DNA from: Candidatus Aenigmatarchaeota archaeon
GTDB taxonomy: Archaea > Aenigmatarchaeota > Aenigmatarchaeia > QMZS01
DNA: 15,575 bases
Direction of reading: 5' to 3'
NCBI GenBank assembly: GCA_016932615.1
Contig: JAFGCN010000012.1
Location: 1 to 15,575 of the forward strand
Part shown: positions 883 through 15,575 of the stretch, one piece after another
Numbering within the stretch: the first letter of the stretch is position 1
Layout of the letters: every line of letters begins with the position of its first letter
Made by a program: the position numbers and the translations under genes
Notes under the pieces: generated by a model
What the model was told of the DNA's origin: nothing
Seen by the model: only the letters and a program-made list of their open reading frames with translations
Databases searched by the model: none

Positions 883-902
883 TTGGCTTATCTCTACTGA
901 TT

Positions 903-914
903 GATAATTTTTAG
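903..914 (+). promoter_or_regulatory. TATA-like element for the DUF357 gene
   Basis: GATAATTTTTA is centred about 20 bases before the ATG at 928, which is preceded by AGTT. This supports ATG 928 over an in-frame TTG at 901, which would fall inside or before the promoter. Confidence 0.4.
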
Positions 915-927
915 TATTTTGGTAGTT

Positions 928-1167
928 ATGGGGACAGAAGAGGAACTAGTCGGCGAAACAAAGCGGTGGCTTTCGAAAATCAAAGCCCTGAAGATTACAC
1001 CCAAGTCAGATAAGGGAAGAGAACATAAAGGGAATATTGAGGCATACATAAGCGACTCGTTGCATTTTTTTGACAAGGGCGACTATGTCAGGTCATTTGA
1101 AGCCGTTGTCTGGGCGTGGGCATTCCTGGAGATTTCAAAAGACCTTGGCTTAATCGAGGTTTGCTGA
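928..1167 (+). CDS. DUF357-family protein
   Basis: This 79-residue all-helical protein resembles the archaeal DUF357 family, whose biochemical role I do not know. The diagnostic part is the C-terminal half: a helix containing AYISDSLHFF, then KGDYVRSFEAVVWAWAFLEI and a final DLGLIEV. This matches the family's pattern of a Tyr/Asp helix, a 'GDYV.AFEAV.WAWA.LD' helix and a Leu-Gly end. The N-terminal half is basic (TKRWLSKIKALKITPKS). The start at 928 is chosen because a TATA-like element ends just before it and the AGTT-ATG context is the local norm. The next gene begins 10 bases after the stop on the same strand, so the two are probably cotranscribed and may act together. Confidence 0.8.
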   Translation: MGTEEELVGETKRWLSKIKALKITPKSDKGREHKGNIEAYISDSLHFFDKGDYVRSFEAVVWAWAFLEISKDLGLIEVC

Positions 1168-1177
1168 GCTTTGCAGT

Positions 1178-2011
1178 ATGGGGAGTGGGAAATCTGGTTG
1201 GGATGGCAGGTCTTCTCATCCCAGGCGGCTCATAATACCGGAACCGCTCTATCAGGTTATGCTCTCAGGAGCGGTGAGTAATTACCTGACTGGGGTAGAG
1301 AGCAGCTACGACCTGTCTGGCATGTCAAAAGTTGGTGGGGACTATCTTGTTGAGAGCCTGTCCAGACTTCCTCCGGGGAATCTCCCTGAGGTAAGGAGGG
1401 TGGTTTTTGGAGATTTGGGGGATTATTGCTTTCACGGAAGCACTGTTGCGGGGGATTTTCACACGCATCCCCTGTTGCCCTTTCATTTCAGGTATTTTAG
1501 TGTGGCTACAGAAGAGGGTTTTTTGAAAGTAGACCCCTTGATTGCCGCAAATATTCTGAACTGTGAAATACTTCCTCCAAGCGGTGCGGACTGGAGGTTT
1601 TTTCTTAATAGAGGGATTGTAGGCACAATGTGTTACCTCGGAAAGGATGTGCTGGCAGTAAACTGCTTGTACAATGAAGGGAGAAACCAGTTCAGCCAGA
1701 TTCCGGTTTGCCGCTTTAAGGATGATCGGCTTTTTGAATTGCCAAGTCATGTTTCAGCGAATCATATTGGAAGCCTTTTTGACCTGGTGGAAGTTTACCG
1801 TCATATTGAAGAGCCGGTTCGCGTCAGTTCCGGGAGGGCAGAGTTTGTGACAGAGTCTGCCGATGGGCTCAGGGAAGTGGAGAGGGTGGATGAGTTCAGG
1901 ACGGTTTCAAAACCCGGCACTGGCCGCATTGGTTATATGCCGGTTGCAAGGGACATGCAGGGAAAACCTTTTGTCAGCCCGATTTCTGAGTATTGTGCTG
2001 GTATGTTGTAG
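1178..2011 (+). CDS. JAMM/MPN-like metalloprotease candidate, 277 residues
   Basis: The first half reads like a JAMM (MPN+/Mov34) zinc isopeptidase, the family that removes ubiquitin-like proteins or trims peptides. After a polar N-terminus, residues 18-48 match the opening of archaeal JAMM proteins (LIIPEPLYQVMLSGA, then E41 and G48 at the spacing of the usual 'E..G.L.G'). GDFHTHP at 92-98 supplies the HxH metal ligands (H95, H97). PPSGADW at 133-139 matches the 'PS..D' that supplies the catalytic Ser and the Asp ligand (S135, D138). In typical members the HxHP and S..D parts are about 10 residues apart. Here about 35 residues intervene (VATEEGFLKVDPLIAANILN and neighbours), so there is an insertion in the catalytic loop. 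Residues 150-277 are unassigned. It follows the DUF357 gene by 10 bases. No ubiquitin-like or E1 gene is nearby, so the substrate is unknown. Confidence 0.62.
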   Translation: MGSGKSGWDGRSSHPRRLIIPEPLYQVMLSGAVSNYLTGVESSYDLSGMSKVGGDYLVESLSRLPPGNLPEVRRVVFGDLGDYCFHGSTVAGDFHTHPLLPFHFRYFSVATEEGFLKVDPLIAANILNCEILPPSGADWRFFLNRGIVGTMCYLGKDVLAVNCLYNEGRNQFSQIPVCRFKDDRLFELPSHVSANHIGSLFDLVEVYRHIEEPVRVSSGRAEFVTESADGLREVERVDEFRTVSKPGTGRIGYMPVARDMQGKPFVSPISEYCAGML

Positions 2012-2041
2012 TGATTTGAGGCATTAATCTTAAACTTCTTT

Positions 2042-2051
2042 GAAAATTATG
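2042..2051 (+). promoter_or_regulatory. TATA-like element of ftsY
   Basis: GAAAATTAT is centred about 25 bases before the ftsY ATG at 2072, in a 60-base gap. No Shine-Dalgarno sequence is seen. Confidence 0.35.
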
Positions 2052-2071
2052 CCGTTATGGCAAATTAGACT

Positions 2072-3163
2072 ATGTTTGGATTCCTAAAGCAGAAGGTAAA
2101 GGAGGTGCTTGACAAGGTAAAGGTGCCTTCCAAGGAGGAAAAAAAGAAGGGTGAGCCGAAAGAAAAGAAAAAAGTGGTTTCCGAAGAAAAGCTGCCCCAA
2201 AAAGCTCTGAAAGAAGAGTCCTTGCCAAAAGCTCCAGCCAGCAAGGTAGAAAGTTTTTCTACAAGAGAGCCCACTGCGACTGCAAAGAGTAAGCCAGGCG
2301 CTGAAGCTTCCACAGAAAAGATGCGCGAAAAAGAGAAGAAGGGCTTTGGCTTTTCCTTGTTTTCAAAAAAGCTCTCTGAAAAAGACCTTGAAGAACTCAA
2401 GATTGGCCTTGTCCGGGCGAACATGTCGTACGAAGCCGCTGAAAAGATTGTCGAGGCATTGCGGGACACTGAGAAAAAGGCGGCTGATGAAGTTTTGCGT
2501 GAGCAACTAATTGAGCTTTTGGGAACAGAAAGATTTGACCTGGTGAAGTTTGTCAAAGACAGGATGAAAACCCAGAAAGCAGTAACGATTCTTTTCTTTG
2601 GCTTTAACGGCGCGGGCAAGACGACGACGATTGCAAAAATTGGGCATCTCCTGAAGAAGAACGGCGTGCCCGTTGTTTTTGCGGCAGGCGACACTTTCAG
2701 GGCCGCTGCAATTGAGCAGTTGTCGGCGCACGCAAAAAATCTTGGCATCGAAATCGTCAAGCACAAGTATGGGGGCGACCCTGCGGCGGTCATATTTGAC
2801 GCGAAGAAGCACGCAGAGAAAATCCATGGAGTGGTCTTGGGCGACACTGCAGGGCGGCTTCATACCGATAAAGGGCTGATGGAAGAGCTTAAAAAAGTAA
2901 TGCGCGTTAACTCGCCTGACTTTAAGATACTTGTCATGGATTCGCTAACCGGAAGCGACATAGTGACTCAGCTTGAAAACTTCTCGGCTATTGGCTTTGA
3001 CGGGCTAATTTTCACAAAGGTGGAGATTAACGAGAAGGGAGGGTCTATTTTCTCTGTCAGGCAGCACACGGACAAGCCGATACTTTTCCTTGGAACCGGG
3101 CAGGGATATGGTGACCTTATGGAGTTTGATCCTGAGAAGATTGTCGAAAAGCTTGATTTGTAG
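2072..3163 (+). CDS. ftsY: signal recognition particle receptor FtsY
   Basis: FtsY is the membrane-associated SRP GTPase that docks ribosome-nascent-chain-SRP complexes at the translocon. Residues 1-100 form a very charged Lys/Glu-rich A-like region, followed by the N domain (about 100-165) and the G domain. GTPase motifs are visible in order: GFNGAGKT (177-184, P-loop), DTFRAAAIEQL (207-217, the SRP insertion-box region), DTAGR (258-262), TKVE (315-318, position of the TKxD guanine motif) and GTGQGYGDLMEFDP (341-354). The closing motif is the FtsY rather than the Ffh form. The length of 363 residues is normal for an FtsY with an A-like extension. The last residue of the TKxD motif is Glu (E318, codon at 3023-3025) instead of the expected Asp. 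The gene is convergent with the next one, 18 bases away. Confidence 0.95.
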   Translation: MFGFLKQKVKEVLDKVKVPSKEEKKKGEPKEKKKVVSEEKLPQKALKEESLPKAPASKVESFSTREPTATAKSKPGAEASTEKMREKEKKGFGFSLFSKKLSEKDLEELKIGLVRANMSYEAAEKIVEALRDTEKKAADEVLREQLIELLGTERFDLVKFVKDRMKTQKAVTILFFGFNGAGKTTTIAKIGHLLKKNGVPVVFAAGDTFRAAAIEQLSAHAKNLGIEIVKHKYGGDPAAVIFDAKKHAEKIHGVVLGDTAGRLHTDKGLMEELKKVMRVNSPDFKILVMDSLTGSDIVTQLENFSAIGFDGLIFTKVEINEKGGSIFSVRQHTDKPILFLGTGQGYGDLMEFDPEKIVEKLDL

Positions 3164-11182: not shown

Positions 11183-12001
11183 ATGGATGAGTTATATGCC
11201 TTCCTGTTTGCAGGGCTTTTCATTATGTTCCTCTTGTTTGCCTTCTTTGGGGGGCCTGAAGTTTCGATTATCTCAGACTCAAAAACCTTCGGGGCTGACT
11301 CCTCCAAGGATTACAGGGCAGAGGATATTCTCTGGAAGGAAATCGACCTTGGCGACATAATTTCCGAGGAAAGGATTGTAAGGACTCAAGAGGTCTTTCA
11401 GGACCAGGTTTCTGTCCAGAACGGGTTTTTCTTCGGCTCTACCAATTACGCAAGAAAAATTGACCTGGACCCTTCAGTTGCCGAGAACCTTGAGGGGGCG
11501 GCAATAACATTTGATGTGGACGAGACTAACAATTACGGGGACCTCACAGTTACGCTTGACAACTCCACACTTTATCTTGACAGGTCTATCAGGGGAAGCT
11601 ACAGAGTAGACGTTTCAGGCATGCAAAAGACTTCGGTTGTTCATATCAGCACATCTTCTTCCGGATGGAGGGTCTGGGCACCTTCAAAATATGAGCTTTC
11701 CGATCTGGGGCTTGAGTATTCCTACCGAACACGGGAGGCCTCGGAGTATGAGTTTGACGTCCCGCACTATGTGTATAATTCCTTCTACAAGGGAGAATTG
11801 AAGTTTGACTCGGTGTACCCCGCAGACCTGGAAATATTCCTCAATGGCGCGTCTTTTTATAACGGGCGCGACTGCTCCGGCAGGACTAACATAAAGCTTT
11901 CAAGAAAAGACCTGGTGCCAGAGGAAAACACGATAAAGTTTGTTTCAGGCAGCGACTTCCGTCTCGAGGGAGCGAAGGTTTACCTGTATTACCAGAGCTA
12001 A
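11183..12001 (+). CDS. membrane-anchored extracytoplasmic protein, 272 residues
   Basis: I do not recognise this family. Residues 5-24 (YAFLFAGLFIMFLLFAFFGG) form one membrane segment with very few residues before it, so the remaining 245 residues are probably outside the cell on an uncleaved anchor. The external part is rich in alternating hydrophobic and polar residues typical of beta-sandwich domains (GAAITFDVDETNNYGDLTVTLDNSTLYLDRSI, TSVVHISTSSSGWRVWAP). It ends with a second probable beta module at 200-270 (GELKFDSVYPADLEIFLNGASFYNGRDCSG to VYLYYQS). It has one cysteine, unlike the cysteine-rich proteins encoded opposite. It converges on the surface operon with a 29-base gap, so it is a candidate partner of that system. 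Confidence 0.76.
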   Translation: MDELYAFLFAGLFIMFLLFAFFGGPEVSIISDSKTFGADSSKDYRAEDILWKEIDLGDIISEERIVRTQEVFQDQVSVQNGFFFGSTNYARKIDLDPSVAENLEGAAITFDVDETNNYGDLTVTLDNSTLYLDRSIRGSYRVDVSGMQKTSVVHISTSSSGWRVWAPSKYELSDLGLEYSYRTREASEYEFDVPHYVYNSFYKGELKFDSVYPADLEIFLNGASFYNGRDCSGRTNIKLSRKDLVPEENTIKFVSGSDFRLEGAKVYLYYQS

Positions 12002-12030: not shown

Positions 12031-12222
12031 CTAGCTTATCGTTGGGGCAATCAGCCCGATGCTTGACGCAATGGATTTTGCAAGCGCCACAGCATGTCCG
12101 CTTACCAGGACGGCAATTGATATAAGCACGACAAAAAGGATTAAAAGCAGCACAAGGTTTCTCGTAAGGTCATGCATTTCCCCTTTCATGTGGGGGGATT
12201 TGCCTTTATTTTCCATAATCAT
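12031..12222 (-). CDS. tiny single-pass membrane protein, 63 residues
   Basis: I do not recognise this family. Nineteen polar, Lys-rich residues precede one hydrophobic helix (LVLLLILFVVLISIAVLVSG, about 23-42). A short, probably amphipathic end follows (HAVALAKSIASSIGLIAPTIS). The start ATG at 12222 overlaps the stop of the upstream vWA gene by 4 bases (ATGA), typical of translational coupling; an in-frame ATG at 12216 is an alternative. It is the last gene of the reverse-strand surface operon. Its size and layout recall small pilin-like or assembly membrane subunits, but no pilin cleavage motif is clear. Confidence 0.68.
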   Translation of the reverse strand: MIMENKGKSPHMKGEMHDLTRNLVLLLILFVVLISIAVLVSGHAVALAKSIASSIGLIAPTIS

Positions 12223-14633
12223 CCGTACAATTCCTTAATCTTATCGGCGATATGCGCGCCTATGGTCTTTGAGTGGGCTTCAGTTGTCCCGTCCAGGTTT
12301 TGCTTTTGCATCTTTATCTGGTCCCAGTGCGTTTCTCCTCTCTCGACGTAAGGGTAGCTCCAATCAGCCCTTCCTGAGGGGTCCCAGTCAACTATGTAAA
12401 CCAGCCCCGAATAGACCTCTTCATACCCCCTCTTGAAAAGTAGCGGGGTGTCTGGCTCTATGCGGTTTTCCTCTTTTGATAAATCAGTGTATTTGTTGTA
12501 TCCCTTGTCGAATGCCGCCCCACGGCTTACGGAGCTGGTAAGAAGGTCTTTTATGTCCTGGCTTGCCCTGAAATGCCGGGCAGACCCACCAGTTGGAACT
12601 GAAATGTCTGAAAACATCTTCTCAATGAGTTGTTTGTCGCCGTCCGTTGGTATGTGGTCCATGTCCCCCCAGAGCCCGTATATCCGGATGTTTCTTCCGG
12701 CCTCCTTTGCCATGTTTGCGGCAACAGCCACAGAGTTAATGTCTTCCTCTGAATTTATCACGCCGACACAGTCGGTTCCAGAGCGGCCTTCTGCGCAGGT
12801 TCCCCCTTCATATGGCCCTTCATCGCCCACGACAAATATTATCCTCTGGGAAGGCACGTCATCCCAGCGGTGGTTTGCTTCGTTCATCACCCATGCAGCC
12901 CCAGGCCCCCAGCTTTCTTCATGGCCCGGAATTGTTCCGTAGGTTGCATCATCGAAGAAGGAAAGGCCGCCGCATGTCCGGTCCTGGCCAAGTGAATATA
13001 CCCAGACCTTGATGTTGTAACCCTCATCCTGCATCTCCTCTCCAAGTGTCTCTATTGCAGCGCAAAGCTCAGCCCACTCGTCATCCATGCTTATGGAGGT
13101 GTCCATTATGAAGACTGCTTGTATGTTTTTGATGCTTAACTCGCCATACTGGTTTTCCATGCGGTAGGCCCAGTCGCAGCCTTCAGTGCAGAGCTTTCTG
13201 TCAGGGTAGCCGCTTTCTGCGGGCTCGCTGTAGTAGGCGTCCTGCGATGAGCAGAAGTTTTTGCACAGGACATAACGGTTCTCATCACTAAGTGCCTGGG
13301 TTGTAGAGCACTCAAGCTTGTCCTGGCAGGTGGTTTCGGGTGCAGGGCAGGTTGCGCCCGTGCAGGCAGGGTCTACGGGAACGGTGCAGGCAAATTCCGG
13401 CTTTTTGCATTCCAGACTTCTGGAGTTTCCCTCCTTGCAGAACTCGTTGCAGCACTGGAGGTAGTCGTTTAGCCGTTCAGGGCTGTAGCAGCTCAGGGCT
13501 GTAGCCGGCTCTGTCACAGTTACGGAGGCAGAGGCATAGGCAGTTCCCCTAAAGGTGGGGTCAGTAAGCTGCACGTCGCCAAGCTTTACAATAGTGTAAT
13601 TGGGTGAGACAATCTGAAAAACATTTTTCTCGAACTCAAGGTATTTCAGGCAGCCCTCCCTTTTTGCGCTGCTAAGCCCTTTGCAGGTGTCAAGCTCTAT
13701 CTCGGGGCTTTTGAACATATCGGGACAGTTGGGGCAGGCAGTAAGGGCTTCGCATTCCTCTTTCCCTGAGATTTCACATAAGAGGTAAGCGCTTCGTTTC
13801 TGGCCTTCTTCGCATCCGGAGGAAAAATCGCTTCCGCTTCCGCCGAGAAGCCCGCAGTTCTTGCACAGGTCAAGGGGATCTTCTTCATAGTACCTTAGCG
13901 TTTCGCTGCAGTGGCATTTTTCCGCATCCCGGCTTGACTGGTAGCAGTTGAAGTTTTCTCCTGTGTAGCAGCTTTTCTCCTCACCAACCAAGTTGCTTAT
14001 AAGCTCGCTTTCGCCAACCGTGCCTTTGTAAAGGGCGCCGGTAATCTTTTGAACAGTCCTGTTTCCGCCAACCCTCACCCCGGCATATAGCGACAGGCGC
14101 GCCTCCCGCCCTCTTTCCACTACAAATACCTGGGGGGTCTTGCCTGTTTCAACAAACTCCTTGTCATTTACCCCGCTTCCAACCTTTGTCTGCGTTTCAT
14201 ATCCAAACTCGAGGTTTCGTTTTTCATCAGAGGAATCCCCTTCAATGATTTTTTCCTCCAGCGTAAGGCAGGTAGCTCTCTTCTTTTCGCTGCAATAGCC
14301 GTCAAGCTTAATCCCGTATGCAGACTTGGCTTTTATCTCACTCCAGCCGACATATTCCCCGCCGAGCAGAGTGTCTTCCATTTTGAGGCACTGGTCCTTA
14401 AGGTCGGATTTTTCGATAGCATTATATATTTCTTCTCCGTCGTCTCCTGGTGGGATGAAGCACCCTGCAGGAACCCTGTCTGACACGATGATGTCGATTC
14501 TTTCATCTGCATCCTGCACCAGGTTTGTGTTTTCGGCAGACCTTTGGATATAGGCGTAGAGCGAAAGGAGGACTGCTAGGAGTATAAGTATCAGGACGAC
14601 TTGGGTCAGCAGCTTGTCCGTGATTTCTGCCAT
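12219..14633 (-). CDS. cysteine-rich membrane-anchored protein with a vWA domain
   Basis: This 804-residue protein starts with MAEITDKL and one membrane helix at about 8-29 (LLTQVVLILILLAVLLSLYAYI); the rest should be extracytoplasmic. Residues about 50-490 contain some 31 cysteines in short-spaced groups (KCHC, ACPNC, CCNEFC, LCKNC), so many disulfides or a metal-binding scaffold are likely. A von Willebrand A domain follows at about 505-705. Its metal site is visible as DTSIS (511-515), with later GDEGP (603-607). vWA domains usually bind protein partners through this metal. ATG 14633 is preferred over the in-frame ATG 14669 because it falls just after the upstream stop (TAA-A-ATG); the longer form would add 12 residues and overlap. 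The gene is coupled to the small genes on either side. It is probably a surface adhesin or assembly factor. Confidence 0.82.
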   Translation of the reverse strand: MAEITDKLLTQVVLILILLAVLLSLYAYIQRSAENTNLVQDADERIDIIVSDRVPAGCFIPPGDDGEEIYNAIEKSDLKDQCLKMEDTLLGGEYVGWSEIKAKSAYGIKLDGYCSEKKRATCLTLEEKIIEGDSSDEKRNLEFGYETQTKVGSGVNDKEFVETGKTPQVFVVERGREARLSLYAGVRVGGNRTVQKITGALYKGTVGESELISNLVGEEKSCYTGENFNCYQSSRDAEKCHCSETLRYYEEDPLDLCKNCGLLGGSGSDFSSGCEEGQKRSAYLLCEISGKEECEALTACPNCPDMFKSPEIELDTCKGLSSAKREGCLKYLEFEKNVFQIVSPNYTIVKLGDVQLTDPTFRGTAYASASVTVTEPATALSCYSPERLNDYLQCCNEFCKEGNSRSLECKKPEFACTVPVDPACTGATCPAPETTCQDKLECSTTQALSDENRYVLCKNFCSSQDAYYSEPAESGYPDRKLCTEGCDWAYRMENQYGELSIKNIQAVFIMDTSISMDDEWAELCAAIETLGEEMQDEGYNIKVWVYSLGQDRTCGGLSFFDDATYGTIPGHEESWGPGAAWVMNEANHRWDDVPSQRIIFVVGDEGPYEGGTCAEGRSGTDCVGVINSEEDINSVAVAANMAKEAGRNIRIYGLWGDMDHIPTDGDKQLIEKMFSDISVPTGGSARHFRASQDIKDLLTSSVSRGAAFDKGYNKYTDLSKEENRIEPDTPLLFKRGYEEVYSGLVYIVDWDPSGRADWSYPYVERGETHWDQIKMQKQNLDGTTEAHSKTIGAHIADKIKELYG

Positions 14634-14634
14634 T

Positions 14635-14796
14635 TTAGAACGAGACGCTTGCAAGAATGTTTCTTGCAAGACCCATAATCATCGAGCTGATGTTTCCAAG
14701 CACGTCTATGTTAAGCACTTTTGTAAAAATCACCATTAGCAGAACCGCCGAAGCAAGTATAATCACCCACATGGGCAGTGAGCTGATGTTAACCAT
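14635..14796 (-). CDS. tiny single-pass membrane protein, 53 residues
   Basis: I do not recognise this family. From ATG 14796 the protein is almost entirely one hydrophobic helix (LPMWVIILASAVLLMVIF, about 7-24), followed by KVLNIDVLGNISSMIMGLARNILASVSF, probably amphipathic. The frame stays open upstream to 14904, but that extension runs back into the preceding gene and carries an unlikely Arg cluster, so 14796 is the better start. The gene sits 38 bases after the upstream stop and one base before the vWA gene. It resembles the 63-residue protein at the operon's end in having one helix plus a short LA(R/K)-(N/S)-I tail. It is probably a membrane partner of the vWA protein. Confidence 0.65.
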   Translation of the reverse strand: MVNISSLPMWVIILASAVLLMVIFTKVLNIDVLGNISSMIMGLARNILASVSF

Positions 14797-14834
14797 AATC
14801 CATACTTCTTTTTTCAAGAATATGCATGAAGCCA

Positions 14835-15575
14835 CTATCTTGTGCAGGGGCACTGGACTTTCACGGCGCCGGCGCTTGAAAGCAGGGACATGGTAATTAC
14901 ACATTCCGGGTCTTCCCCCTTGCAGAGATACCCCGAAGGCAAGAGGTCTTTGTGGTTGCAGATATAGTTTTCATCACCCTCATTTTTGCTCCCCGGAAGG
15001 TCAATGGCGCCAAGCTTCGCCCAGCAGAGATTTTTGCAGTTCTTGCAGTTGGACATTCTCCAGAACTCGGACGGAAGCTGTACGGTATATTTTTCCTCCG
15101 CTTCTGTTCCGGTTGTTCCGGACGCGCTCTCGTCTTCCGGCGTGGAAGAGCCGTCTTCAGTGGCTCCACCGCTTGAGCCGCTGCCCGATGCCCCGGAGCC
15201 GGTTCCAAGCCCCGCCCCCTTAAACGACATCTGGGCGCTGTCTATGGCCTGCTTTGCCAGGTCCCAGGCATACTGCTTTTCGCGCTCGTATTCAATGAAC
15301 GCCCATTTTCTTTTTAGCGTCCCTGAAGGAATGCGGTTTTCCAGATATCCGGGCTTTGGATCCGATGGCAGGTTTTCGCCGTCAAGCTTGCAGAAGGCAT
15401 AGGGGTTGTATAGGTAGTAGCCTGCATCCCCTTTTTTGCAAAGCCACCCTCCGTCGAGCAAATAGTATCCGTCGGCGTCTTTTGCCGCCCCGGAAGTTTC
15501 ATCCGTGCAGGGCTGAAAGCTGATGGTTTCGCCATAGGGACCGAGAATCTGAAGCTTGCTAAGTTGCCCCTTTTC
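14835..15575 (-). CDS. cysteine-rich secreted protein, N-terminus outside the window
   Basis: The reading frame is open from the window edge to the stop at 14835, giving 246 residues of a larger protein. I do not recognise the family. An N-terminal part with aromatic and Gly-rich repeats (DADGYYLLDGGWLCKKGDAG) leads to a helix (RKWAFIEYEREKQYAWDLAKQAIDSA). A low-complexity Gly/Ser/Thr/Glu linker of about 45 residues follows. The C-terminal domain of about 80 residues holds cysteine motifs NCKNCKNLC, ICNHKDLLPSGYLCKGEDPEC and the final QCPCTR. These cysteines and the linker fit an extracytoplasmic disulfide-bonded or metal-binding protein. It is the first visible gene of the surface operon, 38 bases from the next. 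Whether it has a signal peptide cannot be seen. Confidence 0.78.
   Translation of the reverse strand, partial: EKGQLSKLQILGPYGETISFQPCTDETSGAAKDADGYYLLDGGWLCKKGDAGYYLYNPYAFCKLDGENLPSDPKPGYLENRIPSGTLKRKWAFIEYEREKQYAWDLAKQAIDSAQMSFKGAGLGTGSGASGSGSSGGATEDGSSTPEDESASGTTGTEAEEKYTVQLPSEFWRMSNCKNCKNLCWAKLGAIDLPGSKNEGDENYICNHKDLLPSGYLCKGEDPECVITMSLLSSAGAVKVQCPCTR

Follow-up and report, generated by a model that had tools for sequence, protein, structure and literature searches.

What might a small-genome archaeon be building from a handful of tightly packed genes, and what is the large von Willebrand factor A (vWA) protein among them for? The genes lie at the end of a 15575-bp stretch of DNA from a Candidatus Aenigmatarchaeota archaeon (the window, throughout), which is the entire contig C12 of a metagenome-assembled genome (MAG) of 1.26 Mb in 29 contigs. 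An original prediction, made from the letters of the window alone, saw here a surface operon of four co-directional genes with gaps of 38, 1 and -4 bases; our recomputed coordinates give the same gaps and place all four genes on the minus strand, and the description as a surface operon of a small-genome DPANN archaeon, with its relatives in Ca. Aenigmatarchaeota, has held up as well. Read in their own direction, the genes encode a frame of at least 246 amino acids (aa) that is open at the contig end (14835-15575), a 53-aa single-helix protein (14635-14796), an 804-aa vWA protein (12219-14633) and a 63-aa single-helix protein (12031-12222). Nothing usable came from comparing the window's proteins with Pfam, NCBIfam and PHROGs.

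We argue that these four genes probably belong to a type IV pilus (T4P)-like surface apparatus, restricted to one family of the phylum, in which the vWA protein serves as the ligand-binding head. A bolder form of the idea, which we put forward only tentatively, would make that head a specificity cassette, exchanged by recombination, in a type IV filament or adhesion complex particular to the family; the cassette would pass from genus to genus, or give way to a different domain, and would set which partner cell is bound. Where a genome has to be named, G000 is the window's own and the other G numbers are further genomes of the phylum.

An exchanged vWA module

The 804-aa protein begins with an N-terminal membrane helix and continues into a Cys-rich ectodomain (the protein has 35 cysteines, where about 31 had been counted at first), the vWA module (aa ~501-706; 12516-13133, minus strand) and a conserved C-terminal segment. 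The first motif of the metal-ion-dependent adhesion site (MIDAS), DTSIS at aa 511-515 (13089-13103, minus strand), had already been seen in the original prediction, and the motif is present in all eight proteins that carry the module, as DTSIS in the window protein and as DTSGS in seven relatives. Pfam VWA matches three of the nine family members, the window protein not among them; that protein has no Pfam family at E<1 and no NCBIfam match, and none to a Tad/TadG family model. In a predicted model that is otherwise poor, aa ~500-706 form the best part, and this modelled domain aligns to integrin beta-subunit I-like domains (at best with VIA Z 10.6, root-mean-square deviation 4.0, 164 residues) and also to VWF A1 and the pilus adhesin SpaC, with the Streptococcus sanguinis PilB structure (PDB 7BA2) among its Foldseek matches. 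By its motif and its predicted model, the 804-aa protein is a carrier of the vWA fold with a MIDAS motif.

Has this module shared the history of the protein around it? Between the close genomes G006 and G007, synonymous divergence (dS) is 0.415 in the vWA module, against 0.086 in the N-terminal part, 0.091 in the Cys-rich region and 0 in the C-terminal part, or about five-fold higher in the module than in its flanks. Between G006 and G002, which belongs to another genus, the module is 77% identical and the remainder of the protein 43%; in the DNA of these two, an 833-bp block at 81% spans the module, and elsewhere in the gene there is one short significant match (82 bp, 73%). The tree of the module and the tree of the scaffold each reject the other (approximately unbiased (AU) test, p=1.2e-4 and 2.3e-4), and in G003 the slot is occupied by a Gly-rich non-vWA domain, flanked by the left junction and the C-terminal segment, both of them conserved. 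At the level of sequence comparison, these results show that the vWA module has been exchanged between lineages independently of the anchor and the scaffold.

Two other sources of the mosaic were considered and rejected. An assembly chimera is unlikely, the block shared by G002 and G006 being 81% and not near-identical, and the coverage of the contigs being ~107 vs 25. Positive selection alone in the head does not suffice, in that synonymous sites show the excess too, and recombination is therefore indicated.

Nor is the module the only variable part. The ~700-aa protein of the larger cluster described below has a second variable segment (codons ~361-555, G006 vs G007, picked after inspection of the data) with a tree conflict of its own (AU p=0.011 and 2e-7), and in another cluster member the C-terminal parts differ by genome, with Lcl_C and DUF4215 in G002 and a MopE-type motif in G008. 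The pattern, as it appears from eight sequences in MAG data, is one of a constant chassis with exchangeable modules.

Other vWA genes also came into view. On contig C9 of G000 (L051:4586-8548), a second vWA protein of 1101 aa, with 77 Cys and DSSGS, has a vWA region that resembles the operon protein's and directly follows a 185-aa Cys-rich protein with KG before its helix. A separate pilin-like operon (G001:C54 L053:5515-9907; L045 in G072; L046 in G053), present in other families of the phylum too, encodes, next to a ~250-aa MKGQ protein, one of ~406-426 aa that combines an MKGQ prepilin motif with a vWA MIDAS motif.

A larger cluster in one family

The four genes had been taken as the set. 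They do stay together in related genomes, where their order recurs and is conserved as a unit, but they are only a slice of a 10-12 gene co-directional cluster found in related Aenigmatarchaeota MAGs. In the complete clusters (L026 in G001 and L031 in G002), the encoded proteins have, in order, 46 aa, ~500-540 aa, 53-54 aa, ~760-800 aa (the vWA protein), 50-66 aa, 84-90 aa, ~170 aa, 161-177 aa, ~715 aa (Cys-rich), 360-400 aa, ~540-560 aa and 50 aa. Wherever the ~530-aa gene is seen at this place, which is so in five relatives, the order ~530, 53, vWA and 54-63 aa is kept (small orthologues absent from the mechanical gene list were located by hand in G001, G003 and G008). G006 and G007 have the 53-vWA-63 part intact and, upstream of it, a nucleoside-diphosphate-kinase-like gene and a secreted protein of more than 2800 aa instead. 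In G000, the second half of the cluster lies in the same order on another contig (C14:36000-49498, L050), with proteins of 117 aa and 174 aa, the 161-aa orthologue and a frame of ~835-890 aa; the two halves look like separate loci in this genome, because on C12 the 63-aa gene is followed by a convergent one.

The secreted proteins just upstream of the operon, at the place expected for the ~530-aa gene, have 2845 aa in G006 (L028:680-9217, with a Big_13 Ig-like match) and 2823 aa in G007 (L030:746-9217). Inside the operon of G007, a transposase-like fragment sits between the ~172-aa and 156-aa genes (L030:13601-14257), with a related remnant in G006 (L028:13647-13862), as judged by eye.

The first of the four genes was correctly described as Cys-rich with a low-complexity linker, but it is the C-terminal part only of a ~500-540-aa family whose orthologues begin with M[KR]G and a hydrophobic helix; a search of the G000 assembly for the missing N-terminal piece found no second piece. 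Its linker (15096-15221, minus strand) is rich in Gly, Ser and Glu, with many GSG runs, and is followed by the Cys-rich tail, a combination that sequence and alignment place in G000 only among the aligned orthologues.

What of the two tiny membrane proteins, which the original prediction found similar in appearance and offered as assembly or anchoring subunits of the large protein? They are real and they do flank the vWA gene. Orthologues of the 53-aa protein (53-63 aa) lie directly upstream of that gene in relatives, and those of the 63-aa protein, which has an internal MKG ahead of its helix, are ~50-56 aa and lie directly downstream. Both families are under purifying selection, with dN/dS of 0.18-0.25 in informative pairs (0.20-0.22 for the 53-aa family and 0.18-0.25 for the 63-aa family); this, together with the synteny in relatives, rules out the four genes as chance open reading frames. 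Paralogy of the two proteins is not supported: profile comparison gave no homology (probability 4%), and the likeness goes no further than the single helix. They may have a part in assembly or anchoring beside the vWA protein, but we prefer to read them as small subunits, pilin-like or consisting of a helix only, given that the M[KR]G prepilin motif is present in several orthologues in these families.

How far does the cluster extend among relatives? Relatives of the 804-aa protein occur in 8 of the 10 other genomes of its family (9 of 11 with its own), and all named copies come from Ca. Aenigmatarchaeota or Aenigmarchaeota. Matches to three marker families (the vWA, ~700-aa and 161-aa proteins) come from one and the same set of 9 genomes among the 156 of the phylum, and these 9 belong to a single family; beyond these, the 156 genomes gave weak partial matches of the vWA profile in G053, G072 and G151 and one marginal match of the 700-aa profile in G047. 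A provirus or plasmid origin found no support, the viral and plasmid collections having given no viral contig and no plasmid; the PHROG matches were weak, of unknown function and only to cluster members outside the window. We found no description of the operon in a literature search whose coverage left out most subscription papers.

A probable pilus-like apparatus and its rivals

Are the cluster's proteins pilins? A [KR]G pair followed by a hydrophobic helix is the pattern of the class III prepilin signal (PMC8179133; PMC4858521). The pair stands just before the N-terminal hydrophobic helix in 45 of 64 operon proteins and in 11 of 45 controls, these being the other proteins with such a helix in the same loci and in T4P-bearing loci (Fisher p=2.5e-6, which is indicative only, related MAGs not being independent samples; the motif was scored by a simple pattern, not by FlaFind). 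Most of the 11 motif-positive controls adjoin TadA/TadC genes and look like pilins themselves. Several cluster proteins have large Cys-rich ectodomains, and the predicted model of the 161-aa member (pLDDT 73), with a helix at residues 9-63 (55 residues) and then beta strands, would have the overall arrangement of type IV pilins; a PDB sequence search with the 161-aa family gave no match.

The machinery for such proteins is at hand in the family. Genes for a secretion ATPase (T2SSE, TadA-like) and for T2SSF (TadC-like) occur in all 11 genomes, nearly always at other loci, and 9 of the 11 have a match to the A24 (prepilin) peptidase, G000 with two above the cut-off and an A24 peptidase on its contig C9. 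Three genomes link the cluster itself to T4P genes. The two halves of the operon in G010 have a TadC pair between them. In G000, the second half is followed by a same-strand 190-aa protein that is 36% identical to a pilin-like protein beside TadA/TadC in G001. The neighbor of the second half in G005 is a 518-aa gene, 60% identical to a gene beside a TadC pair in G001. The TadC-like proteins are split over two adjacent genes, with ~3 pairs per genome (L078-L087, e.g., L080:7280-8826, G000:C21), and one such pair is not beside a recognisable ATPase gene.

Along with the relatedness of the MAGs, several observations weigh against a T4P-like apparatus. The vWA family (no full-length member has [KR]G ahead of its helix), the terminal 50-aa protein and the window's own 53-aa protein are without the prepilin motif. 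The cluster has no ATPase gene, G010 alone has TadC within it, and none of its proteins stands out as an abundant major pilin. For the 161-aa model, Foldseek and VIA gave no significant fold match, only the helix being aligned.

Part of this would suit a membrane-anchored envelope complex (S-layer-like or a disulfide-linked layer) that keeps its helices as anchors and does not polymerise, the vWA protein being one of several surface receptors. The high cysteine content, the large ectodomains, the lack of a motor gene in the cluster and the motif-free vWA protein all agree with such a complex; the strong enrichment of [KR]G directly before the helix, which is the prepilin pattern, and the T4P gene links in three genomes do not, and we consider it unlikely, if worth keeping in mind.

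One might instead accept the T4P-like apparatus and deny that the vWA protein is an adhesin, giving it the part of a membrane anchor or an assembly factor similar to TadG. In bacterial Tad pili, TadG is a helix-anchored vWA protein, encoded with pilin-like proteins and hypothesised to be a pilus anchor (PMC4858521), and an N-terminal helix without the prepilin motif is what an uncleaved anchor would have. The window protein, unlike TadG, has no Tad-family Pfam match, and a vWA module that passes from one genus to another, or gives way to a Gly-rich domain, is unexpected for an internal anchor and suggests a binding role; this alternative seems to us rather improbable. The many different minor-pilin-like proteins and the lack of an obvious abundant major pilin would fit a pseudopilus-like machine that serves secretion or the uptake of DNA. 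We think this very improbable, given that the cluster shows no consistent link to a gene for a secreted effector, a nuclease or competence and that the exchanged vWA module agrees better with recognition.

If the T4P-like apparatus with a vWA head is accepted, to what is it most akin? The original prediction knew no named system with this exact set, and the protein families are indeed unnamed, but the cluster has the hallmarks of archaeal T4P pilin loci. Such loci (Makarova, Koonin and Albers 2016, PMC4858521), with the DPANN “dark matter” pilin islands (Makarova et al. 2019, PMC6393860, Fig. 2A), are the closest known systems: in them, too, small and large proteins with prepilin-like N-termini are encoded in series, some members are Cys-rich, evolution is fast and the motors may be encoded apart from the pilin sets. 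Our cluster differs in having no Pfam or NCBIfam pilin match, no ATPase, a vWA protein without the prepilin motif and a distribution limited to one family. For the vWA protein itself, the nearest comparison is PilB of S. sanguinis (PMC8179133, PDB 7BA2), a pilin of modular build that combines a class III signal peptide, a small pilin module and a vWA head. The two share an N-terminal membrane helix, a vWA domain with MIDAS and a pilin context; the 804-aa protein differs in having a long Cys-rich region in place of the small pilin module, and we do not file it as a PilB-type modular pilin because it has no prepilin motif. Its carriers may be the tiny helix proteins encoded on either side of it; alternatively, it may stay membrane-anchored like TadG. 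Finally, the T4P that Saccharibacteria use in episymbiosis (PMC12206443) show an ultrasmall epibiont lineage relying on such pili, although theirs is a bacterial system, and the likeness is one of functional analogy only.

Surroundings of the locus and its biological meaning

Directly after the operon fragment, the window encodes the convergent 272-aa protein (11183-12001, plus strand), which has an N-terminal helix, no Pfam match and no BLAST match in the relatives' loci that were read. FtsY-like and small DUF357-like genes (names assigned by eye) share a contig with the operon both in the window (901-3163) and in G005 (L029:12969-14652), and this chromosomal neighborhood may be partly conserved between the two.

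How would the apparatus work? The prepilin peptidase would process the KG proteins, and a TadA/TadC motor encoded elsewhere would assemble them; the tiny helix-only proteins would pack as small subunits beside the anchor helix of the vWA protein, which would be displayed at the surface as a MIDAS-dependent, metal-dependent ligand-binding head. Replacement of the head would then shift binding specificity, most plausibly for attachment to a partner or host cell. We infer this adhesive function, which had been suggested for the operon from the start as attachment to a host or partner; it is a reasonable suggestion and remains the best functional guess, with the host dependence of this archaeon entering the partner-cell reading as a hypothesis.

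The cluster would be a new, family-restricted variant among T4P-like systems, and the exchanged vWA head is its most interesting feature. How DPANN archaea recognize their partner cells is largely unknown, and the cluster is a good candidate for that task. Its genes are now delimited, one module is singled out as the candidate for binding, and nature supplies variants of that module, namely divergent vWA alleles and, on a similar scaffold, one substitute that is not a vWA domain; specificity is thereby open to direct tests with purified domains. Modular, exchangeable pilus heads have been documented mainly in bacteria, and in this family, perhaps, the idea extends to uncultured archaea.

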